Of a stretch of DNA of 64,000 nucleotides, positions 13,892 through 48,048 are shown in pieces. Made by a program: the position numbers and the translations under genes. Under the pieces are notes generated by a model that was not told the origin of the DNA, made no database searches, and saw only the letters and a program-made list of their open reading frames with translations. Location of the stretch: NCBI GenBank assembly GCA_017513905.1, contig JAFWMR010000022.1, positions 1 to 64,000 on the forward strand. The letters are read 5' to 3'. The stretch comes from Candidatus Saccharimonadota bacterium (lineage in GTDB: Bacteria > Patescibacteriota > Saccharimonadia > Saccharimonadales > Saccharimonadaceae). The first letter of the stretch is position 1; each line of letters opens with the position of its first letter.

Positions 13892-15499
13892 TTATACAAC
13901 ACGGGAGATTTCTTCGATGGTAGTAATACCCGATAAAGCCATAAGAAGACCTTTTTGCTCTAGCGTTAGCATGCCGTTTTCGCGAGCGACGATCTCGATT
14001 TTTTTGGCGTTTGCGTCAGCGACAGATCCACGCAAGAAGTCGGATATCTCATCACTAACCACTAATTGTTCCATAATGACAGCACGTCCTGCATAACCGA
14101 ATGGGTTGTCTTCTGTCGGGACAGGATGGAATAGCCGAATATTGTTCGGATCAAATCCATCAACTCCCTCTAGAGTATCGGCAATGTATTTTTTGACCAT
14201 GTCATCAGGCTCATATTCTTCTTTGCTCTCCGTAAGTCGACGTACTAAGCGCTGAGCAACAACTAAGCGTATAGAGTTTGCAAAAATTGGATTGGTGCCA
14301 ATGAGATCAATCATACGTGAAAAGGCGGCCGCGCTGGAATCGGCATGGAAAGAGCTAAGCACGAGATGACCGGTAATAGATGCTTGGATTGCGGTCTTCG
14401 CCGTATCTGCGTCACGAATCTCGCCAACCATTACGACGTCTGGATCAAGGCGCAAGACAGAACGCAGAGCATCAGCAAATGAACCTCCTTCTCCAGTCTT
14501 GATTGGTATTTGAGAAATGCCAGTGATGCCGTATTCGATTGGGTCCTCAAGAGTAATAATCTTTTTGTCAGAAGTATTGAGTGCATTTAGCATGGAATAT
14601 AGGGTAGTAGATTTACCTGAGCCGGTAGGACCAACCATAAGAACAAGACCGCGCGGTTTTCTGATAATTTCATTAATTTCTGCTTTTTCATTATCGGAGA
14701 GGCCCAACAAATCAAGCTGAAGCAAGGACTCATCAAAATTAAACAAGCGGAGCACAGCGTCTTGTCCATACATGGTCGGAACTGTTTCGACGCGAACATT
14801 CAACATGTGAGATACGCCATCGCGGTGGATTTCTGTTTGCAGGTGGCCAGATTGGGACTTTGTGCTAGCCGTAGAAACATTTGCACGAGATGATAGCTCG
14901 CCCATAATAACACGGTAGCGATCTTTACTAAGATTCGCGACTGGGTGAAGTATACCATCTACACGCATGCGAACGCGAATTTCCGTACGGAGGTTTTCTA
15001 TATGGATATCTGAGGCGGTGAGCCTGTCAGCCTGGTCGAGTAAATAATCGAAGATTTTTTCTGAGGATACCGAATTGAGAGTATCAGATACTTCTGCGAT
15101 AGTGTCCGAGTCGCCTTCAGTGGAAATCCTGATATCGTCATAGTGGACTTCTTTGGGTGGATCATAACGCAACATAAGTACGTGATAAGCCGAACCAGAA
15201 ATGAGGAAAAAGTCGACGCGTTCGCCTTCTCTCTCGTAATCAGAACGAATTTGCTGAAGAAGGTGCCGTGGAGTCTGAGATGTAATCATAAACTGGAAGT
15301 GCTGACCATTACCACCTTTGGTCAAAGGAAGGATGTAGTTTTTGTGCATCTCTTCTTTATCTAAGAGGCCATGGAGTAATGGGAGCGAGTCTTCAAAATC
15401 GCGAGTGTCAAGATATGGTAAGCCCAGAATCCGAGCGCGATTTTTCGTTGCTAGCTCTTCATTATCTCGTCTCTTAGATTGGCGTTCTTCTTCGTTCAT
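13892..15499 (-). CDS. type IV pilus assembly ATPase (PilB/GspE family)
   Basis: A 535-residue secretion ATPase that powers pilus extension from the cytosolic face. The N-terminal domain is followed by ATPase motifs: Walker A GPTGSGKSTT (about 292-301), the Asp box TLEDPIEYG, Walker B RLDPDVVMVGEIRDADTA and the His box GHLVLSSFHAD. The CxxC zinc motif common before the C-terminal part of PilB/GspE is missing (PVPTEDNPFGYAGRAV). The -10 TATAAT ends 7 bases before ATG 15499, so leaderless. The pilin operon is elsewhere, at 41553-46527. Confidence 0.92.
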   Translation of the reverse strand: MNEEERQSKRRDNEELATKNRARILGLPYLDTRDFEDSLPLLHGLLDKEEMHKNYILPLTKGGNGQHFQFMITSQTPRHLLQQIRSDYEREGERVDFFLISGSAYHVLMLRYDPPKEVHYDDIRISTEGDSDTIAEVSDTLNSVSSEKIFDYLLDQADRLTASDIHIENLRTEIRVRMRVDGILHPVANLSKDRYRVIMGELSSRANVSTASTKSQSGHLQTEIHRDGVSHMLNVRVETVPTMYGQDAVLRLFNFDESLLQLDLLGLSDNEKAEINEIIRKPRGLVLMVGPTGSGKSTTLYSMLNALNTSDKKIITLEDPIEYGITGISQIPIKTGEGGSFADALRSVLRLDPDVVMVGEIRDADTAKTAIQASITGHLVLSSFHADSSAAAFSRMIDLIGTNPIFANSIRLVVAQRLVRRLTESKEEYEPDDMVKKYIADTLEGVDGFDPNNIRLFHPVPTEDNPFGYAGRAVIMEQLVVSDEISDFLRGSVADANAKKIEIVARENGMLTLEQKGLLMALSGITTIEEISRVV

Positions 15500-15523
15500 G
15501 CTTATGATTATAACACACCGGTG

Positions 15524-18500
15524 TTATTTGTTTAATGTTACATCGACGCTGTTGGAAAGATGGTACTTGCCATCATGAACAAAAATGATTGGCTCTAGCT
15601 CGTAGTTACCGGGTGCTGCTACATAGAGTGGGATTTGGATCTCGTTAGACGTATAGTGTTTGTTTAGATTTAGTTTTACATACTCGTTATTATTGCGAGA
15701 AAGATATAATCCAGTATCGCTAGAGAATGTCGCAGAGAATTTTAGTCCAACCGGGAGTGCGATATTTATTTCTCCATTACGTTCTTCACCCTGAAGATTC
15801 GATATATCAAGAACCAGATTAGCTGTCTGTCCTACCGAAGTCGCCCCGCTTATATGCGCGGAAATATCGGTCGTAGAATCAGCAAGATCGGATATGCGTC
15901 CTTGGTAATAGTAAGTAGCGTAGAGGTCGTTGGAACTTGTCTTAAATTCAAGAGTTGAAAGGCTATCTGACGAGAAAATACGTTTTTCAATTGCTAAGCC
16001 GTTAAACTCAATACGCTCTGTTCCTTCTGGACGAACGATATCTATGGTGTTCTTTTGGGAGAGTTCGGCTTCGTTGTTGTTGAAGAACGAAATGATTGCG
16101 AAGTCGAGATAATCAGCGGCCGGGTTCTCGATGACGACACGATCAATATATGAAGCGGCTTTATTCTTTTCGAGCATGGTTGCAAGAACTGCATACAAAT
16201 CGCCGTGAATATCGGAGTAATCAACGAGCTTATAAAGTGACGATGCCGAATCATAATCGCCAAGGAAAGCATAGGCCAGACCGAGGACGATACGGTCTTG
16301 GTCGCTAAGATCGTCACGATCTATAGCATTCAGGTCGAATAACACTGGTTCTCGGAAGCTTGCGAGCACAAGGAGCTTTTCAAGGGCGATCGACGTCTCG
16401 TCATTTATTTCAACGGAGTAGTTTACGGGTTTCAAATCAAAGTAGTCACGTGCGTAGAAATTTGCGAGTGCCGTAAGTGTATAATCACCTTCAGCATTTA
16501 TAAGTGGTCTCAAAACTCCGTTATCAGTCAGGTATATCGAAAAATCTGGGGCTTTGACGGAGCTAGATTCTTTATAAAGGCTATCGTGGATTTCTCCAGC
16601 CTTGTAGTAAGCGATTTGCGTGTCAAGGCGTTCGGTTAGGTTGCCTTCTAGCTTATCGAGATAATCAATATATTTTTTTGCATCCTTGCTATATAGCTCA
16701 ACAATGATAGGATTCTTTACTGGCGTGATTGATTTAACCTCGGATAAGTCCATGGTTTGTTTGATACTGACTTCTTGTGCCGTTTCGACAATTTCTACTG
16801 GGAACTCCATAGCATCTTCGTTCCCTGCGTCGTCGTGGCCGGAAATGCGTACCGTATAGTTTCCTAATGGCAATTTACCGAGATTCGCATAGACGTTCTC
16901 GCCAAGTTGTCCCGTAGCCTCACCGTGTTTGTCGGTGTCTTTAACTTCAAAAGTATAATGGATAGTATTAGATCCCGAGACAGGTGAAGTCGCGTTCAAA
17001 ACGAGATCGTCTGTGTCTTTAACTTTCTTTGGCATAACGGTCGAGATGGAGAGCGGGAGGAATGAACCGATTTTCTTCGTGCCAACGCCAGCATAGATTA
17101 TGTCGCTTGGGCGAACCACAATTGCCGTGAATCGGAATGACGTAATGATATCATTCAAATCGAACTCAAATTCTGCTTCACCATTTTCAAATGTCTTTTC
17201 GCCGAAGAAGATAGTATCGCCAAAATTAGAACGCGCGCCGCCGGCGGCTCCTTTGCCACCACCAGCTTCGCCCAGCTCGAAATCGCGGAAAGTAGACATC
17301 GAGTAGCCTTTGATTGTCTTGTTTGCATAAATAGAATCAAGAATGCCGGTACTGTCGCTAGCGCCGTTAAATACCGCGTCATTAACTACGGAAAGATTAA
17401 CTTTTCCGGAATCGGCGCGAGAACCATCTGGATAAGTGATAATTACTTTAGCCTTAACATGGTCACCGGGCTCATAGGATTCTTTGTCGGTTTCGATTGA
17501 GACGGATAGGTTTGCATTTGTCGCATCGTAGTCGTAATAGTTCGGAGCGATACGATAGAATTTACCGTCTTTGAAATATGCGCCGATAAACTTTGCTCCA
17601 GGATATAGATTGTAGTCAAAATCATAATCAAATGTGTCACTATCCGAAATGTTCGCCGAGACAATCCTTTCTTTATAGCCGATAGTAAGAACCTTGCCGG
17701 TGTTTTCTACGCTCTCACCATTGGCGTCATATAAGCCGAGGCTTAGCTTGTCGCCGACATTATAATTCGTTATGCCGTTAGTATCACGAAGACCGAAGCG
17801 GTAGAGCGCATAGTGCGCACTGAGATGAATAGAAGTGTCGTTATAATAGTCTTCATAGCCATAACCGTAAAAGTCATCATAGCTATGGACTGCTTTGAAT
17901 CTGCTGCAATTGCAAGACCCGGAACCTGAATAGTAGCCATAGCGATAATAAGTGTTATGAGACGTCGATGGTCGATTCATAGAGTCTGTAGCTGATACTT
18001 GGACAGAATAGGAATAATAAGTATTTTCGGTCGACGGCTTGTAATCAGTAGAGTAATGATAGTCGTATTTGCCGTCTCTAATATCGATAGTTTCCGTAGC
18101 TATTACTTCTGACGTAGTCGTAATATTGTATACTGGAACGTTTTGCTTCGTGTATTGGTCGTACGATGTGCCAGTTTGCACGCGCACGGTTTTGTGTTCG
18201 TAAACCTTCAGTGTGGCAGGTCCAGAATAATTTGATGAATCGAGTGCTCTACTGTAATATCCGTATTCTGCTTCGCGAGTTAGATCAAGATTCTTCGCAG
18301 TGATATTTAAAGTATTGGTGGCTTCATTTTGTTTGATGTTTAAATTGAGATTTGTCTTGAAGATAAAGAAACACGCGGAAGTCGAATACTTATTATATTC
18401 AGCCCCTGCGGACTTAATCTCAAAATAATTGTTTAAATAAACGGACGGCGACGATTCAAGAGAATACGTACGCTCAGTCGGGAGGCTAAAGGAAGCTTCA

Positions 18501-20446
18501 CCGTAGGCGTTAGTAGTTCCATAATAATCATGTTTGTCATAGGTGATAACGAGGTCTTTGTTTGCCGCAGGAAAACCAGTGACGTGAGATACTTTGACTT
18601 TAAAGTTCATAGGTTCACCAGCAATGGTGTAATTCTTTGGCATTATGACTTCATATGTGTAATTTTCAAGAGTGTAATCTTCGATTGAGATATTTCGAGT
18701 TGCTATTGACGCATCATTGTATGTGACTCTTAGATATGCCCATGGCATATCTTTGATATTGTCTAGCGACAGGTCAGCGGAGAATGTACCATCAGAATTA
18801 ATGACGATAGACTGCTTAAATACCACATTCGTGTTGCTCCAGTCAGAATTCAAGGAAAGGCTGAACTTACTCATATCTGGAGCGTCAGCAAAGAAGCTCA
18901 GTGGAATATAGCCCCAGATTTTGACCGTATCGGTGGGCTTGTAGAGTGGGCGGTCAGTGTAAATAAACCCAGTTGGGTATAAGTCATTCTTGTAGTTATT
19001 CAAACCGATGATAAGTGGGTTGCTGTCATCGCCTACTTTGGCATAATCAATATTTTTGGAGAAGTCAGAGAAACCATCGATTCTCAAAAGGCCATTGTCG
19101 TCAGTATAGTAGTCGTTGCCTTTAAAATTGATTTTTGCCCCTTGCTTTAATTCCCCATTTTCGGCAACCCAAAATATAAGATCGCGCTCAGATTCGAAAG
19201 AGTAAGCATCTAGGTTGTTAACCTGAATATTGGCAGTCAAAATATTTGCATCATCAGCGGACTTAAGGCGAAATATATAGTAACCAGCAGGAAGTGTTTC
19301 TTTCAGAATTAATCTTTTGTAATAGTCATAATCACTAGCTGGGATCATTTCGAATTCTTTGCGTCCGAGGGATTCGCCTTGTACAGACTCGCCTTTAAGA
19401 TATTTTATGTATTCATCGGCAGAACTGATTTTTTCAACAGTAAAATGTGACGCGTTGCTAAAATCTGATGCACTAACTACAATGCTTGGGAAATCTGCTG
19501 GGTGGAAAGTTGTGATTTTGTCTAAGGTTATATAGTAGTCACGACTGTCCTGTGAAGAAACAGTGCGGGAATGCGTAGAGAAAGATGAATGGAAATCTTC
19601 GGCCATGGTTTCTTCACCAACGGTTAAGCCGGCAGTGATAGTAATTTCGTAGGTAGTATCAGCGGAAAGTGGGGCCGATGGAGAGAACCGCCAACCGCGG
19701 TCGGTTTTTGCGAATGTTCCGTCAACTGACGGAGAAATCCTGAAGTGGTCTTTAATACCTTCAACTTCTGGGTAAGAGAAATTAATTTCGATTACGGACT
19801 CTTCGGATACGTAGTTAGCGCCATTTGCAGGGTAAACCTTGGATACGGAGAGAGCCTTTTTGGTCTGATAGGCCCATTTGTAAGAAACGATTGGGCCGTT
19901 CATGGAATTAAAGCCAAATACCGTGTTGTCCGCAAGCGTCGAGGTTGGAGTGAGCTCGTATTCGATACCGGGCTTTACTTCTTTCAAATCATAATCAATC
20001 GCCGGATCGAGGACCAAAACTTCTTTGAGTTTCTCGATGGATGCGTTTTCTGTCTTGATTGTAAAATGAGAGTTGTTGGAAAGAATACCATCTTCTATTG
20101 CGGTTGGAGAGATACTAAGGATCTTTGTATGGTCGTCGCCTCCAGGGATGAGAGATAACACACTAGATAAGTCGCCGAATGTCATAAGGCTATAAAGCGC
20201 TCCGCCGATGATTGTAACTAGGATGGCCGTGGCTGCAGAGAAAAGAATGTCGTGGAGATTCTTCTTTTTTGCATCAACTTGATCATCGGAATTTGACGGT
20301 CCTGTGTCGCCCGTGAATGCTGATTCAATTTCTTCTTTGGTTGGTGCCTCGCCAACAAAAGCATCGACAACTTCCTCTTTCGTTGGTTCAGTTTCGTTTG
20401 CCTCCGGCCTATCCTCAGGGACCGGATTGTCTGATTCTAGTTTCAT
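15524..20446 (-). CDS. giant alpha-2-macroglobulin-like surface protein
   Basis: At 1640 residues this is the longest gene here. It has an acidic cytoplasmic tail (1-60) with a repeated PTKEE motif, one transmembrane helix (about 67-90), then a huge extracellular part. The middle holds macroglobulin-type domains: YTDRPLYKPTDTVKIWGY, then a bait-like region and ITSFRFTAIVVRPSD, matching the A2M-domain entry segment. A helical domain resembling the A2M thioester domain and C-terminal beta domains follow. The thioester motif (CxEQ) is not present, so covalent trapping is unlikely. AAAGGAGAG precedes ATG 20446 and TGCTATAAT lies about 50 bases upstream. Inferred role: protease trap or surface scaffold. 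Confidence 0.85.
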   Translation of the reverse strand: MKLESDNPVPEDRPEANETEPTKEEVVDAFVGEAPTKEEIESAFTGDTGPSNSDDQVDAKKKNLHDILFSAATAILVTIIGGALYSLMTFGDLSSVLSLIPGGDDHTKILSISPTAIEDGILSNNSHFTIKTENASIEKLKEVLVLDPAIDYDLKEVKPGIEYELTPTSTLADNTVFGFNSMNGPIVSYKWAYQTKKALSVSKVYPANGANYVSEESVIEINFSYPEVEGIKDHFRISPSVDGTFAKTDRGWRFSPSAPLSADTTYEITITAGLTVGEETMAEDFHSSFSTHSRTVSSQDSRDYYITLDKITTFHPADFPSIVVSASDFSNASHFTVEKISSADEYIKYLKGESVQGESLGRKEFEMIPASDYDYYKRLILKETLPAGYYIFRLKSADDANILTANIQVNNLDAYSFESERDLIFWVAENGELKQGAKINFKGNDYYTDDNGLLRIDGFSDFSKNIDYAKVGDDSNPLIIGLNNYKNDLYPTGFIYTDRPLYKPTDTVKIWGYIPLSFFADAPDMSKFSLSLNSDWSNTNVVFKQSIVINSDGTFSADLSLDNIKDMPWAYLRVTYNDASIATRNISIEDYTLENYTYEVIMPKNYTIAGEPMNFKVKVSHVTGFPAANKDLVITYDKHDYYGTTNAYGEASFSLPTERTYSLESSPSVYLNNYFEIKSAGAEYNKYSTSACFFIFKTNLNLNIKQNEATNTLNITAKNLDLTREAEYGYYSRALDSSNYSGPATLKVYEHKTVRVQTGTSYDQYTKQNVPVYNITTTSEVIATETIDIRDGKYDYHYSTDYKPSTENTYYSYSVQVSATDSMNRPSTSHNTYYRYGYYSGSGSCNCSRFKAVHSYDDFYGYGYEDYYNDTSIHLSAHYALYRFGLRDTNGITNYNVGDKLSLGLYDANGESVENTGKVLTIGYKERIVSANISDSDTFDYDFDYNLYPGAKFIGAYFKDGKFYRIAPNYYDYDATNANLSVSIETDKESYEPGDHVKAKVIITYPDGSRADSGKVNLSVVNDAVFNGASDSTGILDSIYANKTIKGYSMSTFRDFELGEAGGGKGAAGGARSNFGDTIFFGEKTFENGEAEFEFDLNDIITSFRFTAIVVRPSDIIYAGVGTKKIGSFLPLSISTVMPKKVKDTDDLVLNATSPVSGSNTIHYTFEVKDTDKHGEATGQLGENVYANLGKLPLGNYTVRISGHDDAGNEDAMEFPVEIVETAQEVSIKQTMDLSEVKSITPVKNPIIVELYSKDAKKYIDYLDKLEGNLTERLDTQIAYYKAGEIHDSLYKESSSVKAPDFSIYLTDNGVLRPLINAEGDYTLTALANFYARDYFDLKPVNYSVEINDETSIALEKLLVLASFREPVLFDLNAIDRDDLSDQDRIVLGLAYAFLGDYDSASSLYKLVDYSDIHGDLYAVLATMLEKNKAASYIDRVVIENPAADYLDFAIISFFNNNEAELSQKNTIDIVRPEGTERIEFNGLAIEKRIFSSDSLSTLEFKTSSNDLYATYYYQGRISDLADSTTDISAHISGATSVGQTANLVLDISNLQGEERNGEINIALPVGLKFSATFSSDTGLYLSRNNNEYVKLNLNKHYTSNEIQIPLYVAAPGNYELEPIIFVHDGKYHLSNSVDVTLNK

Positions 20447-39813: not shown

Positions 39814-41349
39814 ATGAGAAGAAAGAGGTGTGCTTATTTAGAAGTTTGTCTGGTATTAATGTCGGTCCTAACACCCACAGCAACTGCATTCGCTAACGCC
39901 ATTGAAGAAAAGCTAGACGATGATATCATAGCGCAAGCCGAGGATATCGATGCGGAATCCGTGGATGGTAGTAACGTTAACGTTTCAGATGCTTCCATGT
40001 CATCATCTGTGGCAGCGTATGAAGGAGAAGATGGACAGTTGTTAACGAATGTGCTGATAAGAAGTTATAATCCTGGGTTTTCTGACCCGTATGAAGGAGA
40101 GTTTTTTGAACTAGTTAAACTCTCCAAAGATTCAATTTTGCTCGCCGGTCTTTCGGTAATATATGAAACTTCTACGGGAAGTGAGTATGCTATATACGAA
40201 TTCTCTGAGGGTCATGAAATGATCGGCGAGTCTCTCCTTTTTAGGTTGGCTAGCTCAAAAGAAGTGATGAGCAAAGATGATGACACTGAGGTAGCAGATG
40301 TGATTTATGCTCGCAATATGTCGCAAAGTGCTGGGAGAATAAAGCTCAAGTATGACGATACGATGATCGATTCTGTATGTTGGGGCATAAAAGAAACTGG
40401 TTGTTATAGTGCTTTCAATTCCAAGAAACCAATGACTTTAGTGCGCGAAATCGATAACGAAGAGATAGGCGATTTTGTCCATGTAACAAATTACAAACCA
40501 ATATTTGATATGAGTGGTCCTGGGTTAAAGTATAATGAACCAGAAGAAGAGCTAATTGAGCCAAAATGTAGGAATGTGGTGTTTTCTGAGCTGCTTTCAT
40601 ATTACGAGAGCACAAGTACGGAGCAATTTATCGAACTATATAATTCCGGAGAAGAAACGACAGAATTGGACGGATGTTTCGTGAGATATAAGAGTAACAG
40701 CTATTTACTCAGTGGTAAAATTGTCGCACATGGGTTTATTGTTTTTTATCCAGCAGTAGACTGGCGAGTGACATTTACGAAGAACCCCGTCTCTTCAAAC
40801 AAATTAGAAATTATTGATGTAGATGGGGAGGTTGTCGATAAATTAGTGTATTATAGTGGGCAAAGAAGAGGCTTAAGTCTAGCTATGGTTGGCTATAAAT
40901 CGGATGGTAGTAAAAGGTGGGAACAAACTTATAATCCAACACCAGGTACAGAAAATATGTACCAACAATTTAAAACATGTCCCGTCGGTAAAGTGATTAA
41001 TCTTGAAACTGGAAATTGCGTAAATGAGTCGCCTATAGAAACAACACTGGCTGCATGCCCCGAAGGCAAGTACAGGAACCCTTTAACTGGACGATGCAAA
41101 AGTTATGCAACGGGCGCCAACACTGAACTTAAGCCATGCGCTGAAGGATATGAGCGCAACCCTGAAACGAATCGATGCCGCAGAATTGCGACAAACACAG
41201 GAGCTGATTACCCAGTAACAACTGGCGTGTATGAAAATAAAAAGGAATTTGCATCTGTTTGGACAATAACGACAATTGTGGTAGCTGGGATTGGCTATAT
41301 TATATTTCAATATAAAGACGAACTGAAGCTCAAGTTTTCCCGAAGATAA
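39814..41349 (+). CDS. lamin-tail-domain surface protein with cysteine repeats and C-terminal anchor
   Basis: A 511-residue exported protein. Signal peptide 1-28 (ending AFANA), an acidic Ser-rich stretch, then two lamin-tail-like domains (about 75-215 and 248-385). The second has the typical FSELLSYYESTSTEQFIELYNSG opening (interrupted by variable residues) and ends in YNPTPGTEN. Then come three cysteine-bounded repeats: CPVGKVINLETGNC, CPEGKYRNPLTGRC, and CAEGYERNPETNRC. A transmembrane helix (about 480-498) and a Lys/Arg tail anchor it. The weak -10 TGCTAGAGT ends 6 bases before ATG. Probably a surface or sortase-free wall protein; the ligand is unknown. Confidence 0.85.
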   Translation: MRRKRCAYLEVCLVLMSVLTPTATAFANAIEEKLDDDIIAQAEDIDAESVDGSNVNVSDASMSSSVAAYEGEDGQLLTNVLIRSYNPGFSDPYEGEFFELVKLSKDSILLAGLSVIYETSTGSEYAIYEFSEGHEMIGESLLFRLASSKEVMSKDDDTEVADVIYARNMSQSAGRIKLKYDDTMIDSVCWGIKETGCYSAFNSKKPMTLVREIDNEEIGDFVHVTNYKPIFDMSGPGLKYNEPEEELIEPKCRNVVFSELLSYYESTSTEQFIELYNSGEETTELDGCFVRYKSNSYLLSGKIVAHGFIVFYPAVDWRVTFTKNPVSSNKLEIIDVDGEVVDKLVYYSGQRRGLSLAMVGYKSDGSKRWEQTYNPTPGTENMYQQFKTCPVGKVINLETGNCVNESPIETTLAACPEGKYRNPLTGRCKSYATGANTELKPCAEGYERNPETNRCRRIATNTGADYPVTTGVYENKKEFASVWTITTIVVAGIGYIIFQYKDELKLKFSRR

Positions 41350-41552: not shown

Positions 41553-42917
41553 TTAGTCGTCTACGTCGTCGGTATCTGGGCAAGATTGAATATTATTAGG
41601 GTCGCTTGTATCGATACAGTTACTAGTGACGTAGAAGTTTTTCTTGATGGCGTCGTCGCCATTACTCGTAGCTTGAATAGCAAATTCAGCAAACGGGAAG
41701 TTGTCTTTAAACTCTAGGCGAGCTTCGACGCGCGAATACATATCATTTGCACGACCTGTTGAATCGACGGCGATCTGGGCGTCTTTAAACTCGGCAATAG
41801 AAAGATTACCATTCTCCATACAGTCACCACGACGCTCAATGTCACGGTCTGTACACATCTGAACTGCAAAATCTGTGGTTGGATTCGCATACGGGAGGGT
41901 AAGAACGAGGAAGAAGGTATTGGAATTGCGTTCGGTAACATTTCCGCTTCCGTCTACGCCATTAACTGGTCCAGGAATCTCAATGGAAGCCACGCAGGCG
42001 AATTCATCAGAAAGACCAGTACGGCATTGAATCTTTTGAGGTTGGTTATTAGTAGTGCGGTCGTAGGAATGGTTATTTGAATCGGCGAGTATAGTAAGAC
42101 CAGTAGAATAGTGACCAATATGAGTAATAGCGGTTTCGTCTGTAGGAACAAGGACGACAGTACCACGATCGGTAGTTTTACTGGCAGCATCATAGTTGTT
42201 AAAATCGTCTAGGTGAAATTGACTGGCGGTCTGAATAACTTGTGCGGTTATGGTAGGAGGTGTAGGAATACCGTTAGTGGTCGGTTTGAAATTGCTTTTA
42301 TTTGAATAATTAAGCGCGGAGAAAAGTCCATTATCTTCGGTGTACCAAGAAATGCGAACACCTGTGACTGTTTCTGGATGCTCAGTCTTGAGTGGAATCA
42401 CACGAACGGTGTTGCTTCTATCCAATGTTGACCTATAATCTTCAAGGGTATTATCAATGGTGACACAAGTATAAGCCTGAACAATATTGCCACTATTGTT
42501 ATTGCCGTCTTCCTCCTGAATCAAAACTTCGCCAGTTGGATCTGAGGGGTTTCTGCGAGAGAGTGCTTCAATGATAGCGTCGCAATAGCCATAGTTCGTT
42601 TGGTTAGGTGCTAAGTTAGATGTCTGAAAACCAAATTTGACGCGGTCTTCAATGTGATCACAATCGGTGGGGCGACCTTCTGCTTCCGGAATGGATTGAC
42701 ACTCGTAGAAGCGTTTAAGAGCAGTCTTTGCATCCTCAACTCCAGCAAGGGCAGAGTCGTAAGCGGCCTGAGCGAGCTCATCGCTTGTAGTCTTAGCTGT
42801 TTCATTAATGATAATACGAATGAAACTGACTGTTATCACGCTAAAAAGTAATGTGCCTATAACGACTACATAAATTGAAGTGGCGCCTTTTTTAAGTTTA
42901 TTATTGTGTTTTAACAT
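41553..42917 (-). CDS. PilX-like type IV pilus minor component
   Basis: A 454-residue protein starting with a short basic leader (LKHNNKLKKGATSIYVVVIG) and a hydrophobic helix (about 14-38) like those of pilin-type proteins. KKGA replaces the usual GFTLIE, recalling PilX/GspK-type minor pseudopilins. The large extracellular domain is rich in Thr/Asn with several Cys. It is the last gene of an operon with two prepilins; AGGAGG lies in the 8-base gap before ATG. Probably a minor pilus or tip subunit. Confidence 0.8.
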   Translation of the reverse strand: MLKHNNKLKKGATSIYVVVIGTLLFSVITVSFIRIIINETAKTTSDELAQAAYDSALAGVEDAKTALKRFYECQSIPEAEGRPTDCDHIEDRVKFGFQTSNLAPNQTNYGYCDAIIEALSRRNPSDPTGEVLIQEEDGNNNSGNIVQAYTCVTIDNTLEDYRSTLDRSNTVRVIPLKTEHPETVTGVRISWYTEDNGLFSALNYSNKSNFKPTTNGIPTPPTITAQVIQTASQFHLDDFNNYDAASKTTDRGTVVLVPTDETAITHIGHYSTGLTILADSNNHSYDRTTNNQPQKIQCRTGLSDEFACVASIEIPGPVNGVDGSGNVTERNSNTFFLVLTLPYANPTTDFAVQMCTDRDIERRGDCMENGNLSIAEFKDAQIAVDSTGRANDMYSRVEARLEFKDNFPFAEFAIQATSNGDDAIKKNFYVTSNCIDTSDPNNIQSCPDTDDVDD

Positions 42918-42925
42918 TTTCCTCC

Positions 42926-43906
42926 TTACTTACCTGATGTTTGAAGCGTAAAGTTAAATTTGTTGATAGCGCAATAGCCGAAGTCGGAGCTAATGTAATC
43001 TGGAGTTTTGCAGAATTCGCTGCTAGACATGATATCAACGCCGCTATTGACGGTACCAAGGATAAATGAACCGGAAAAGAGCAAACGCTCGCCGGCGCCT
43101 ATGCGGGCAGGCTCAAACACTACAAGATCATACAACACAAGGTCGGCGTCGGTTTTGTGAAGAAGCTCCTCTGGCTGCGCGCCAAGCATAGAATCAATAT
43201 TAATTGTGAAACCACCTGCATCACCGCCTGGACCAACGACCGCCTGTGCCGCCGATGGATATCTAGTAGCGAGCGTAGATGCGCAAATTGATCCAGATGG
43301 GTCTTCGACCTTGATTAGACGAAAATCATGCAGCGGATCTGTTGCTTGGCTCGAATCGCCAGACACAACGGTCCCATCTTCTTTGCGATACTGATATTTA
43401 ACTTTTATCTTATGCTTATTGCGTAGATCGTGCTGATTACCACCACCTTGAAATTCATAGTGGTCTAAATTATATAAGTAGCCAGTGTTCCATAAGTAGG
43501 TATACTTGCCAGAACAAAATATACCACTAGTCGGAACCTGCTTAGCAGTAGGCGTTCCGCCGCCTGAAGTCACCTTGACCGATGCGTAATATTGCTGGTA
43601 AACGGAATAGAAACCATTGTTGGATGATTCACAATTTTGTCTTTGCGTGTCATCGTTATGATACTTTTCGGAGCAAAAAGTTGAAATTGAAGCTGGTGGA
43701 GACTGAATAACCGACGTCTGGAACTCATCGATAAGATCTCGTCCAACTTGATTGACGGCTTTAAGTGAATAACCTTTGCGATAGATTTGAATTATTTCGT
43801 TAGTGATAACGGTAATAGTAATGAGCAGAATGGAAATAAAAGCGATGGCAAGAGACAGCTCAATAAGGGTAAAACCATTCCTGTTTATTTTACGACCATA
43901 TCTCAT
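42926..43906 (-). CDS. type IV prepilin-like protein
   Basis: A 326-residue protein with a prepilin leader: RKINRNG-FTLIELSLAI, cleavage after Gly11, with the conserved Glu5 of the mature protein. The hydrophobic helix spans about 12-38. The exported domain has paired cysteines (e.g. STFCSEKYHN, FCSGKYTY, SSEFCKTPD) and is longer than a typical major pilin, suggesting a PilW/GspJ-like minor pilin. An internal extended -10 (TGCTAAAAT) ends 8 bases before its ATG, so it may also be transcribed separately. Confidence 0.9.
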   Translation of the reverse strand: MRYGRKINRNGFTLIELSLAIAFISILLITITVITNEIIQIYRKGYSLKAVNQVGRDLIDEFQTSVIQSPPASISTFCSEKYHNDDTQRQNCESSNNGFYSVYQQYYASVKVTSGGGTPTAKQVPTSGIFCSGKYTYLWNTGYLYNLDHYEFQGGGNQHDLRNKHKIKVKYQYRKEDGTVVSGDSSQATDPLHDFRLIKVEDPSGSICASTLATRYPSAAQAVVGPGGDAGGFTINIDSMLGAQPEELLHKTDADLVLYDLVVFEPARIGAGERLLFSGSFILGTVNSGVDIMSSSEFCKTPDYISSDFGYCAINKFNFTLQTSGK

Positions 43907-43944
43907 ATATTGTTATTTTAGCATAAACTTTTTGATTAATAAAG

Positions 43945-44835
43945 TTAAATGTTAGGGCGCCCCAAGCAAGAATTGTCCTGGTCCATTTCGGTCAACATTA
44001 CTCCGGAAGAGTTGCTGGCGCGGGCGTCAATTTTGAGACCGCGACGATTTGCGCCTACATTATCGTCGGACTCAATACAGACCGTTAATTCATTTTGGCC
44101 GTGGTTAGTCGAAGCGTCAACTTTTTCTTTCAAAAACTTGGTAAAATTAGTTTTTGCATTACTGAAAGTTTCATAATTATGGAATAGATATACCGCATCG
44201 TGACTGTTGCCATAGGAAAAAGTATAAGTGCGGATACTGCCAGTAGATGGAGAGCGAACGACTAGGATGGCGCCACGGAATCGGCTGCCGTTCGTAGTGC
44301 CGCTGGTGCCGTTTTTGACCTGTATAATTCCATCCCAAGATACGTGATATTCGTTCTTGCGATAAAACTTTTGACAACCAACTACGGTCGAACAGCCGCT
44401 CGTATCAACAATGCCAGCTTCTACGCCGCCTGATCCAAAACCATTATATAGCATTTGAATGGCACGTTCGCCTCTAACGGACGCGGAGCTCCTCGCAAGG
44501 CCAACAATATCATAAACATAAATGGTGTCGTCTAATGTAGAACAACTCGTATCAGCGCATTCGCCGATAGAAATAAGTTTGCCGTAAACGGCCGTCTTAG
44601 TACGACCGGCTTCTTCGGTAGATTCCTCTGGATTCTTGTCATTTGAAACATTGAGAACGTCAGTATACACACCGCGAATAAACTCAGCAAAATCATTAAC
44701 GGTGTCATTGTAACGTTGACGAGAAATAGAAATGTTGGCGCCAACGATAATACCGACCATCAGAAAGCCGGAGAGGGCTAGGAATAAGGCTATTTCGATT
44801 ATAGTAAATCCTGTTTTTCTGAAATGATGTTTCAT
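43945..44835 (-). CDS. type IV prepilin-like protein
   Basis: A 296-residue protein with the prepilin motif KTG-FTIIEIALFLAL, cleavage expected after Gly9 and Glu at mature position 5. The exported domain has a Cys pair in CADTSCSTLDD and another in SGCSTVVGCQKF. It resembles GspH/FimT or PilV-type minor pilins. Its ATG overlaps the upstream TAA by one base, so translation is coupled to 44835-45305. Confidence 0.9.
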   Translation of the reverse strand: MKHHFRKTGFTIIEIALFLALSGFLMVGIIVGANISISRQRYNDTVNDFAEFIRGVYTDVLNVSNDKNPEESTEEAGRTKTAVYGKLISIGECADTSCSTLDDTIYVYDIVGLARSSASVRGERAIQMLYNGFGSGGVEAGIVDTSGCSTVVGCQKFYRKNEYHVSWDGIIQVKNGTSGTTNGSRFRGAILVVRSPSTGSIRTYTFSYGNSHDAVYLFHNYETFSNAKTNFTKFLKEKVDASTNHGQNELTVCIESDDNVGANRRGLKIDARASNSSGVMLTEMDQDNSCLGRPNI

Positions 44836-45305
44836 TATTCTTCTCCTTTACGAATTGATTTTAGCGTGTCGTCTGCGATGGCAGAATATTTCATAAATAA
44901 ATCTGGTTTGTTTAGATGTTCTTCGGAATAAAGCGCAGTAAGAATTGAGTAGTAGCGATATCTTTGTGCGAGAGTCATATATTCTGGCAAAGTGTAATTT
45001 TTGATGTAATATTCGACACCAACATAATCTTTGACTTCCAAACGTTCTTCGGCCATAGTCATAGCGTTATTAAAGTCTTGTGCATCGTATTTCGAAAGAG
45101 TATCTTCGCTCGTATCTTGGTCTTGTGTAGGTTGATTGGGCTCAGAGCCATTGTGAAGAAGAACAAAGATCAGTGCACCGACAAGACATAAGAAGGCCGC
45201 TGTAGCAACAATAACAATGGCTGTAGTCTTAGATTTTTTGGGCGGTGGCGTTGATTCAACAAAATCTTCGGCGCTAGTCTCAGGCAAGATGAGATCGTCG
45301 TCCAT
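44835..45305 (-). CDS. bitopic protein of the pilin operon (paralogue C)
   Basis: A 156-residue protein: acidic cytoplasmic N-terminus, Lys-rich stop (PPPKKSKT), transmembrane helix (about 27-49), a disordered linker, and a helical extracellular domain (about 70-156). The YMTLAQRYRYYSILTALYSEE stretch (interrupted by variable residues) resembles a TPR-like helix pair, similar to those of the two upstream genes. The family is not recognised. It could replace PilN/PilO/PilP alignment proteins, but this is inference from position and topology. Confidence 0.75.
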   Translation of the reverse strand: MDDDLILPETSAEDFVESTPPPKKSKTTAIVIVATAAFLCLVGALIFVLLHNGSEPNQPTQDQDTSEDTLSKYDAQDFNNAMTMAEERLEVKDYVGVEYYIKNYTLPEYMTLAQRYRYYSILTALYSEEHLNKPDLFMKYSAIADDTLKSIRKGEE

Positions 45306-45877
45306 TATTCAGCTCCTGCATTGTCGCATTTTTCCAGAAGATAATTTAGACGCGACTCGGCGGTGTCACGAGAAATTGTGAAATCTTCAAAGTTATCCGC
45401 AAGGACTACTGCGGCACGATAATATTCATAACGTCCACAAGTGTCTAAATAGTCCGGGAAGATTGTCTCGAATGTTGCATTAGCATACTCCCAATCTTCG
45501 TCGTTAAGGAGCGAAAGCAGTGTATCAATTTTGTTTTGCTCACGAGCTCGTAGCTCTGGGTTGTCTGTGTCGGCCGTATATTCGCTAGTCGCGTCACGCC
45601 CTGTGGGGTTTACGAGTGGATCTTCACTGACGGTAGGGTCTTGGGCTGCAGATTGCGGCAAAAAGATTAGCAGGGCGATAACGCCTAGCAGAACAACGAC
45701 AAGAACGGCTCCAAGAATGATGGTATTGTTTTTTGACTTACCTTCATCTTTTTTCTCAACATTAACAAACGGATCTTTAGAAGAACGGGAACGCGAACTG
45801 CGGATCTCTCGGGTCTGAAAGCGGTCCTCGTTCTCGCCGAATGGATCAAGTTGATTAAACGATTTCCGCGCTGGCAT
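45305..45877 (-). CDS. bitopic protein of the pilin operon (paralogue B)
   Basis: A 190-residue protein with a long basic and Ser-rich cytoplasmic part (1-50), a transmembrane helix (about 51-73), an acidic linker, and a helical extracellular domain (about 110-190) with CGRYEYYRAAVVLADNF. Starts and stops overlap its neighbours by one base, so the three genes are translated as a unit. The shared design with paralogues A and C suggests they form a hetero-oligomer at the pilus base. Confidence 0.75.
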   Translation of the reverse strand: MPARKSFNQLDPFGENEDRFQTREIRSSRSRSSKDPFVNVEKKDEGKSKNNTIILGAVLVVVLLGVIALLIFLPQSAAQDPTVSEDPLVNPTGRDATSEYTADTDNPELRAREQNKIDTLLSLLNDEDWEYANATFETIFPDYLDTCGRYEYYRAAVVLADNFEDFTISRDTAESRLNYLLEKCDNAGAE

Positions 45878-45879
45878 AG

Positions 45880-46527
45880 TTATTCTCCCGTTGTTTCTGA
45901 TGACTTTTCTGACGAATCAGAGTTAGATCCTTCTCCTGGCGTCTCCTCGTCCCAATATATATCAAGGACGTTATTGATGAGTTCTGAATATTCCTTATAG
46001 GCAGTCTCGTTGCCAGAATGTTCATAAAGATATGCGTAGGCACTATAGAGGTTGAACAGTTGTCGGTAGCTTAGGGAATCTCGGTCAATCGCATTGAGCA
46101 TGGCTTCGCCTTCATCGTAAAGCCCGGTTACAGCGTAAAGATTAACTATTTGCAACTGAGCATCAAGTTTTTCATCGTCAGTGGCGTCTGCGCTATTAAT
46201 GGTAGCCTCATGCGCCTCGATATATTCTCGGCTAGGGTCTTTGGAATCTTCGGAAGGAGCCCAGACAATTTCAGCAGGCTCTTCTTCGGGTTGTTCTGTG
46301 GGTTTGTCCGTGGATGGTTGACGAAAGATGAAGAATAACACTGCTGCCACGCCTATAAGCAAGATAGCTCCGATGATAGCTAAAATAAGATGGTGTTTTG
46401 CGGCTTCTTCGTTTGTATTTTTTTCTTTACGAGCGGGCTTGATTGGGCCGGACTCTTTTTTGAGCGAATTAATATTCTCGGGGGTAAGCTCACTCACGGG
46501 AATCTTAGATATCTTATTATTATCCAT
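45880..46527 (-). CDS. bitopic protein, first gene of the pilin operon (paralogue A)
   Basis: A 215-residue protein: cytoplasmic N-terminus (1-45), transmembrane helix (about 46-68), Pro/Glu-rich linker, and an extracellular domain with TPR-like helices (LQIVNLYAVTGLYDEGEAML, then LFNLYSAYAYLYEHSG). The C-terminus is acidic and Ser-rich. The -10 TATACT ends 6 bases before ATG 46527, marking the leaderless start of the operon that runs to 41553. No close family by eye. Confidence 0.75.
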   Translation of the reverse strand: MDNNKISKIPVSELTPENINSLKKESGPIKPARKEKNTNEEAAKHHLILAIIGAILLIGVAAVLFFIFRQPSTDKPTEQPEEEPAEIVWAPSEDSKDPSREYIEAHEATINSADATDDEKLDAQLQIVNLYAVTGLYDEGEAMLNAIDRDSLSYRQLFNLYSAYAYLYEHSGNETAYKEYSELINNVLDIYWDEETPGEGSNSDSSEKSSETTGE

Positions 46528-46568: not shown

Positions 46569-46997
46569 TCAGGTACCAAATAGAAAGGACATCCATTGGG
46601 AAACATTGGAAGGATCTTCTGCTGGGGCATCTTCTTTTTTCGTATCGTTGTATTTTTTGCGCGCGGCTTCCGAGTTTTCTGGGAGATAAACGAGATGCTC
46701 GCCGTCCAACATTTTATTCGCCTTGGCACGCGCAGAAAGTTCTTGATATTCATCAGAACGATAATATTCGTTCTCTAATTCTATGGTCGCAACTTCCAGT
46801 TCGAGAAGCTTTTGTTCCCTTTTTCTGGCAGTAAGCTTCTGGGATAGTTCCCAGTTCTTAGCAGTAGCAGAAAGAGAACTGTAAGTCCAAAAGAAACAGA
46901 CTACTATGGCAACGAAAAAGATAATATTGTCAAATGACAGATAATCGTGTTTGATGCGAAAATAAGATCGACGGAGATGAGCCTTAATATCCTTCAT
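46569..46997 (-). CDS. FtsB/DivIC-like septum protein
   Basis: A 142-residue bitopic protein: basic cytoplasmic N-terminus, transmembrane helix (about 23-42), extracellular coiled coil (about 50-90), and the family-like end SDEYQELSARAKANKMLDGE then HLVYLP, comparable to ARExLGMVxPGE in FtsB/DivIC. These proteins activate septal wall synthesis with FtsL and FtsQ. The start is ATG 46997 because the -10 TATAAT (47010-47005) overlaps the earlier ATG 47006 and ends 7 bases before 46997. Confidence 0.82.
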   Translation of the reverse strand: MKDIKAHLRRSYFRIKHDYLSFDNIIFFVAIVVCFFWTYSSLSATAKNWELSQKLTARKREQKLLELEVATIELENEYYRSDEYQELSARAKANKMLDGEHLVYLPENSEAARKKYNDTKKEDAPAEDPSNVSQWMSFLFGT

Positions 46998-47067
46998 CGT
47001 TTTCATTATACCATAATCGTTATAGTTCTTGGGTAGAAGAGTAATAATTTAACTGGGCTTTTATTAA

Positions 47068-48048
47068 TTAACCGATACAAATAGTGGGTGCGTTTTCGTT
47101 ATTTGCGGCGACCTTGCGTTTTGCAAGATAAATAATGGAGATAATCGCTAAAATAATCAGTGAAATCGCCAAGATCAGGGTTGTCGGTGTTAATACGAGC
47201 ACAAAATGACTACCGCTTGCGGAAATGTCTAGGGCAGAGATGGAATACTCGACGCGATAGACGCCAAATTTTGGCGAATCGTCCCACCCGGCGTAAATTG
47301 TCTTGATGCTTTCTGGGAAAATGGAAGAAATTACGGTGTTTGCATATAGTTGCTTTCCGAATATTGATGATATCTTGATGTCGATTGAAGCCTGAAAGTC
47401 GATATTCCCTTCATTTTTTATACGTGTTTGCGTACTAATTGCTTGATTTAAAATAAGCGAGCCAACGTTTATTCCTTCAATATGGACAGCACGCTTAGGT
47501 TCTCCCGGCATAGTAGCATAGATTGTCATTCCAACTCTAGAGATGGTCTGGATAACATTCTTTGTATTTCCTTCTGGCGGTTCTGCTTCGACAAATAAGA
47601 CTGCATATTGCCCACCTCCTGGTACTTCTTCAGGTGTGCTAATTTTGTAATCTATGGTTTTAGCTTCTTGCGGCGGAATACTGTAAACTGCCTCGGGCTC
47701 ATAGGCGCCACTTTCTGTTTTTATTGTAATCCATCGAGCAATTTGAGTATATGTAGTTTCTGTATCGAAGTTTTGCGTCTCACCATCTTCGCTGGTAGAA
47801 AAAGGCTTAGCATAGATATGGACAGTTACCTCCTCTGAACCAGTGTTGGTTACTTTCATAGTCGAGTCGTGTGTTTCATCTGCGCTTAAAGCTAATCTTT
47901 TGGTGACCGGAGTTATCTCTAGAACGGATTTCCCTCCTGTGGGCACAACCTCTTCTATAACGTCATCTGCATGTGCCGGAGTGGCGCTAATTAAGAGAAA
48001 ACTACAGATCGTGATTACTGCAGTCATAGCCGAATGTCGATGTAGCAT
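47068..48048 (-). CDS. DUF916-like cell-surface protein with C-terminal anchor
   Basis: A 326-residue paralogue of 25339-26250: signal peptide (1-27, ending AHADD), a first Ig-like domain (LEITPVTKRLALSADETHDS, then ARWITIKTESGAYEP), a second with EVPGGGQYAVLFVEAEP, GNIDFQ and GWDDSPKFGVYRVEY, then a transmembrane helix (about 287-309) and a short basic tail. In Firmicutes such proteins hold WxL proteins at the wall. AGGAGG precedes ATG 48048. No WxL-like gene is adjacent here; candidates are at 1-540 and 26980. Confidence 0.85.
   Translation of the reverse strand: MLHRHSAMTAVITICSFLLISATPAHADDVIEEVVPTGGKSVLEITPVTKRLALSADETHDSTMKVTNTGSEEVTVHIYAKPFSTSEDGETQNFDTETTYTQIARWITIKTESGAYEPEAVYSIPPQEAKTIDYKISTPEEVPGGGQYAVLFVEAEPPEGNTKNVIQTISRVGMTIYATMPGEPKRAVHIEGINVGSLILNQAISTQTRIKNEGNIDFQASIDIKISSIFGKQLYANTVISSIFPESIKTIYAGWDDSPKFGVYRVEYSISALDISASGSHFVLVLTPTTLILAISLIILAIISIIYLAKRKVAANNENAPTICIG

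Follow-up and report, generated by a model that had tools for sequence, protein, structure and literature searches.

The pilus protein PilY1 is a large secreted protein that combines a variable N-terminal part with a conserved C-terminal part and is encoded alongside minor pilins. According to the available parts of two reports, type IV pili are involved in host-cell recognition and attachment by Saccharibacteria (PMC12206443, PMC10633639). The available part of one of them also describes PilX-type proteins of Nanosynbacter lyticus TM7x that carry extra domains, PilX2 being proposed as an adhesin, and gives pilM1, pilN1 and pilO1 for the first pilus locus of that strain (PMC12206443). The stretch of DNA analysed here, referred to as the window, comprises 64,000 nucleotides of contig C10 from a Saccharibacteria genome of 919,513 bases in 23 contigs (98.95% complete). 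The nearest named relative found in a contig search with PilX, and the sole named one, was RGIG7994, a Saccharibacteria isolate from water-buffalo rumen. The window contains a minus-strand run of minor-pilin genes with the order O0-A-B-C-pilin1-pilin2-PilX, followed by tRNA-Met. The three genes A, B and C are the subject of this analysis. The explanation to which we give an even chance is that they encode tetratricopeptide repeat (TPR) partners, acting as receptor, chaperone or anchor, of PilY1-like pilus adhesins. These large secreted proteins are called giants below, and giant and partner would form a pair within the pilus gene set.

A, B and C are real genes, and sequence comparison identifies them as tandem paralogues of one predicted membrane-anchored family, pointing to a local triplication. 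Each protein has a single hydrophobic segment, starting at residue 47 in A, 53 in B and 30 in C. The genome has four full-length members of this family, the fourth (A2) being encoded on contig C21 behind a trigger-factor-like gene. Single-sequence links found with phmmer were weak among the trio (B-C, 1.5e-5; A-B, 6e-5 to 7.5e-5), and A matched A2 at 4e-16. Direct single-protein searches of the 61 genomes of the same taxonomic family gave matches, mostly weak, to A in 6 genomes and to B in 3, the own genome counted. The protein family became visible only with profiles. Iterated profiles begun from each of A, B and C converged on almost identical sets of about 40 proteins, and full-length matches to the family profile were obtained for A (3.5e-54), B (1.6e-37) and C (1.0e-31), all three of which are rows of that profile. 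Because a common membrane helix can fake homology, the helix and tail were removed and the paralogy was re-tested. With a helix-less profile of B and C searched against a database of 1155 proteins, A-family proteins filled the first 11 places outside the profile's own rows (top E 0.0008).

The AlphaFold model of A comprises a low-confidence tail, a helix at residues 41-68 and a further five helices within 98-195; pLDDT exceeds 93 over 91-190. In VIA-align it matched TPR and proteasome-lid/PCI domains (Z 10-13 over ∼100 residues, rmsd mostly 2.4-4), and the antiparallel helix pairs of this predicted model match those of solved TPR proteins. A also gave a weak match to TPR_19 (0.036), and another member of the alignment matched TPR_1 at 1e-8. 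The model of B repeats this helix order but has one helix less, and IpgC-type TPR chaperone domains were among its structural matches. Foldseek returned no match at E<=0.001 for either model. A is predicted to carry a TPR domain and B a similar helix bundle. An earlier note on this DNA had described three bitopic proteins of the same design, each with a TPR-like extracellular domain. The common design is borne out by the family relationship and by the shared helix order of A and B, and the TPR-like domain by the model of A, which would face outward. The order of A, B and C is kept in the related genome G062. Values of dN/dS are low (A, 0.24/2.96; C, 0.24/1.37; B, 0.25 with synonymous sites saturated), and in two species whose PilX proteins share 75% identity all three genes have stayed intact under purifying selection.

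In the giants, which have ∼650-1900 residues, there is a hydrophobic segment at the N-terminus, the N-terminal part is variable and the C-terminal domain (∼330 residues) is conserved; they end in E-L-A/P-P-R-Y/F at the extreme C-terminus. Among the tails of 67 giants, found with a profile that includes the tail, R occupies position -2 in 66, P position -3 in 61, and Y or F position -1 in 63. The C-terminal domain was detected in 93 of 100 genomes of the window's genus (64/64 of the near-complete ones) and in 53 of the 61 family genomes (40/42 near-complete). At the level of the phylum it was detected in 42 of 192, and among the matches listed outside the family the alignment ends before the tail. 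Neither PilY1 nor any other family in Pfam or NCBIfam matched this domain, no PDB sequence match was obtained, and a comparison with the PilX profile revealed no relation. Two of the eight large proteins scanned, including one of prepilin type, matched InlB/Listeria-type repeats. Given their pilus-gene neighbourhood, the domain plan of the giants is that of a PilY1-type adhesin, though they are not PilY1 by sequence. The window's own genome encodes one giant of 1893 residues on contig C21. A second secreted protein, of at least 923 residues, begins 5 nt downstream of A2 and runs off the same contig; a giant C-terminal piece at the start of contig C18 may or may not be its end. Separately, a large secreted family with repeats and Fib_succ_major-like parts was observed in this genome (G000) on contigs C2, C5, C13, C14, C18, C19 and C22 (L174-L182), with several members in tandem or broken by contig ends. 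A 1108-residue modular pilin with InlB repeats and Fib_succ_major is encoded beside a TPR-partner member in G062 (L149:4281-7607, minus strand).

Genes for members of the TPR-partner family and for giants are frequently adjacent. Pairing was counted only in sets outside profile A1 (L192-L210, L220-L239 and L252-L259), the A1 sets being left out because that profile includes members found beside giants. At E<1e-3, a member lies <=150 nt upstream of the giant in 11 of 19 cases in the genus set, 12 of 20 in the family set and 8 of 8 in the pilin-locus set, or 31/47 in total. The corresponding counts for control open reading frames (ORFs) were 2/58, 1/73 and 2/41. The pilin-locus set (L252-L259) was picked for a giant near pilX, so its information is limited to whether a partner is present. 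Two genus loci (L201 in G121 and L207 in G080) were known beforehand to have A matches near the giant, and without them the count is 9/17; at the looser E<0.05, the family count becomes 13/20. The loci and clades are related, and Fisher values for these counts do not equal independent-sample probabilities. In the sets fetched by the giant alone, 35 of 37 member matches adjoined a giant.

The pair is recurrently found in pilus clusters. A spacing of 9-61 nt separates the end of the giant from pilM in 19 of 20 family loci. With members upstream, the family thus most commonly has the arrangement member-giant-pilM-pilN-pilO. In loci of the window's genus, the pair is instead located upstream of the minor pilins, after trigger factor or ahead of a RadA-like gene; the order member-giant-minor pilins was observed in many other genus loci. 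Of 57 genus pilin loci, 20 contain giant and member, one a giant alone (cut by a contig end), four a member alone (the window, G062, G082 and G132) and 32 neither. The order in G119 is A-B-fourth member-1638-residue giant-C-pilin1-pilin2-PilX. The trio's link to pilus genes, noticed earlier in the window, is supported. In L108 (G082) and L110 (G068), pilin1 is separated from the TPR-partner gene by rpsL- and rpsG-like genes, recognised by eye. In relatives, these two genes are also found 3' of the giant at the trigger-factor locus, a pattern suggestive of recombination between the loci.

On the partner hypothesis, the giant would most likely be exported by Sec and then held, perhaps via the C-terminal tail, by the partner's TPR domain at the external membrane surface. 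The partner would pass the giant to the minor-pilin complex or anchor it there, and the giant may function as an adhesin of the pilus tip or the surface, a role that PilY1 has in other systems. In the window's genome, A, B and C might act in trans, either on the minor pilins or on giants from other loci. TPR domains frequently recognise the final residues of a client, and cytosolic TPR proteins read C-terminal peptides. Since the most constant part of the giants is likewise their last residues, the proteins may form a C-terminal sorting system. The sequence E-L-[AP]-P-R-[YF] on adhesins would be read by a membrane TPR receptor and the adhesins delivered to the type IV pilus, with the window encoding the receptor in three copies. 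This more specific proposal is rather doubtful.

Several findings weigh against the assignment of A, B and C as partners of the giants. No recognisable member lies upstream of 8 of the 19 genus giants and 8 of the 20 family giants at E<1e-3. The 1893-residue giant of the own genome has no partner beside it, and the trio has no adjacent giant in the window operon. Some members instead adjoin tail-less large proteins of prepilin type (L149 and L151) or are near neither kind of protein; the prepilin neighbours keep the link to the pilus and weaken a strict tail-receptor rule. In the eight proteins scanned, the N-terminal parts show no adhesin family beyond the InlB repeats, apart from Fib_succ_major in the prepilin-type protein. 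The links that a helix-less profile of A and A2 still makes are weak (the C and B proteins of G119, at 3.4e-4 and 0.025, respectively). For the model of B, matches to TPR proteins are weak, with a best VIA Z of 9.2 among mixed helical repeats, and Z values carry little meaning for helical repeats.

Among the alternatives, the one that survives best is that these proteins are secretion accessories: membrane-anchored chaperones at the exit side of Sec for very large proteins, with no direct role in the pilus. YfgM, which is bitopic, is a model for such a role. The position of A2 between the trigger-factor-like gene and a giant, in the own genome and in close relatives, is as expected for an accessory of this kind, as are the IpgC-like TPR chaperone domains among the matches of B. 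However, placement before pilM (for the giant in 19 of 20 loci) and before minor pilins exceeds the need of a general chaperone. In addition, the fetched neighbours of the other large secreted proteins in the own genome contained no match to A, B, C or A2. This alternative is possible, though we consider it unlikely. The TPR domains could also act as receptor-anchors only, which would tether the giants to the monoderm cell surface or wall apart from the pilus filament. The conserved C-terminal tail would suit an anchor, and member-giant pairs also occur outside pilus loci, but the recurrent placement in pilus clusters makes a role restricted to anchoring quite unlikely.

The absence of a giant in the window operon is probably due to loss. 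The PilX tree nests the window, G062 and G146 next to G119 (support 100/98), within a group that also contains three more giant-bearing loci. The pilin locus of G146 lacks the trio. On the simplest account, the giant and the fourth member, which lay between B and C, were lost before the lineages of the window and G062 diverged, and G146 lost the rest; gain of the giant in G119, rather than its loss in the window's lineage, is possible. The trio could then be a leftover that has outlasted the giant, with no role in the pilus or with a different role. Such a history would agree with a giant absent at the window locus and present in the sister G119, and with the disappearance of the trio in G146. 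It is nevertheless improbable, as all three genes are intact under purifying selection in the two species compared.

The earlier note had recognised no PilM, PilN, PilO or PilP genes in this region, which holds for the window and not for the genome. Contig C22 carries, in order, pilM (PF11104, 1.4e-37), a pilN-like gene (384 residues), a pilO-like gene (301 residues), a small bitopic gene (168 residues), pilB, pilT, pilC and pilD. The products of pilB and pilT match T2SSE (5.7e-120 and 5.9e-51), that of pilC T2SSF (2.7e-56) and that of pilD A24 (6.5e-22). The order pilM-N-O-pilB is kept in all eight relatives examined, where pilB was recognised by eye. The names pilN and pilO are based on position and on homology to the genes at the same place in these eight relatives; Pfam and PDB profiles recognised neither PilN nor PilO, and the PDB comparison gave chance matches only. 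No PilP was identified in these genomes. When the trio family was compared with PilN and PilO by hhalign, only the membrane helix aligned (17 and 21 columns, probability 9% and 17%). The complete trio is present in just 3 of the 57 genus pilin loci (the window, G062 and G119), and any member in 24, although the pilus genes themselves are general. The trio is therefore not regarded as belonging to the pilus in general. The idea that the trio is a lineage-specific replacement of the PilN/O/P alignment complex fits its bitopic design and pilin-operon position, but it was discarded as highly improbable in view of the ordered pilM, pilN- and pilO-like genes on C22, the helix-only similarity, the all-helical domain in the model of A and the absence of the trio from most genus pilin loci. 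Clear alignment-complex genes elsewhere in the genome had been named in the earlier note itself as a refutation of this idea. A second suggestion of the earlier note, that the trio is a pilus-base adaptor for the wall, is possible.

Table 1. Genes of the minor-pilin run, with coordinates in the window
Gene	Coordinates	Strand	Description
O0	46569..47006	-	145 aa; small bitopic protein, first of the minor-pilin run
A	45880..46527	-	215 aa; bitopic TPR-partner family member; predicted membrane helix ∼41-68, TPR helices 98-195
B	45305..45877	-	190 aa; paralogue of A and C; predicted membrane helix ∼51-72, helices 107-189
C	44835..45305	-	156 aa; paralogue of A and B by homology
pilin1	43945..44835	-	296 aa; minor prepilin, GFTIIE motif
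pilin2	42926..43906	-	326 aa; minor prepilin, GFTLIE motif
PilX-like	41553..42917	-	454 aa; final pilin-type gene of the operon

As described before, the trio precedes two prepilins and a PilX-like protein, and all of these ORFs were found on the minus strand (Table 1). Starts and stops overlap by 1 nt at B/C and at C/pilin1; the same had been said of A/B, where there is in fact a gap of 2 nt. The gaps at pilin1/pilin2 and pilin2/PilX are 38 and 8 nt, respectively. Pilin2 matches TIGR02532 at 18.4 bits (cut-off 16.3) and PF07963 at 0.0041, below cut-off. Homologues of pilin2 occur in 54 of the 61 family genomes, and none was detected in loci L069 and L075 in a scripted locus scan. Pilin1 matches PF07963 at no better than 0.12, and a homologue is present at the equivalent position in relatives. 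The PilX-like protein has no Pfam match, and its homologues were found in 91 of 100 genus genomes. In G066, PilX lies inside an open frame of 1433 residues (contig C6, 16480-17802), possibly with a very large extra part. O0 has homologues upstream of pilin1 in most genus loci and no match in Pfam or NCBIfam; by eye only, its C-terminal pattern resembles septum proteins of the FtsB/DivIC type.

The operon is flanked by genes for a WxLIP-like secreted protein (47068-48048, minus strand; PF06030 at 5.7e-5, below cut-off) and for a secreted protein with a lamin-tail domain (39814-41349, plus strand; PF00932, 2.4e-10). At 13892-20446 of the window (minus strand), a second PilB-type ATPase (PF00437) is encoded directly 3' of a 1640-residue protein with a tail, a membrane helix and, by eye, an Ig/alpha-2-macroglobulin-like look. 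A GDT-type minor prepilin is absent from the window operon, and copies are located on contigs C19 and C18 of the own genome (L173:6009-7837, minus strand; L174:6484-8871, plus strand). These copies comprise a protein of 267 residues encoded behind a 316-residue bitopic protein, and one of 795 residues with a large extra C-terminal part.

The gene pair is apparently unnamed and is widespread in Saccharibacteria pilus clusters. No description of the TPR-partner family or of the pair was found in the literature searched, where a mention in supplementary files is possible. The pair may bear on how the ultrasmall Saccharibacteria recognise and attach to their hosts. The variable N-terminal parts of the giants are candidates for deciding which host is bound, and the pair is directly testable in culturable, transformable strains, if these carry it.

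The pilus clusters of TM7x, like those described here, contain pilM1-N1-O1, pilB1, pilT, pilC1 and pilD, with five pilins in locus one; the available part of that report mentions no TPR partner family and no large protein upstream of pilM (PMC12206443). In the window's species, unlike in TM7x, the minor pilins are encoded apart from the machinery genes. The trio resembles PilN, PilO and PilP in its predicted design of short cytoplasmic tail, one membrane helix and extracytoplasmic domain. In place of the ferredoxin-like domain of that group, a helical TPR domain is predicted for A. Envelope TPR scaffolds such as the N-domain of LpoA and LapB share a helical domain of TPR type, with Foldseek E values of 0.02 or worse, and differ from the trio in sequence family and gene context. 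With regard to the giants, the C-terminal domain of PilY1 was not recognised in them, and to our knowledge a paired bitopic TPR protein is no feature of PilY1. The likeness to PilY1 lies in a large secreted protein with a variable N-terminal and a conserved C-terminal part, encoded with minor pilins.

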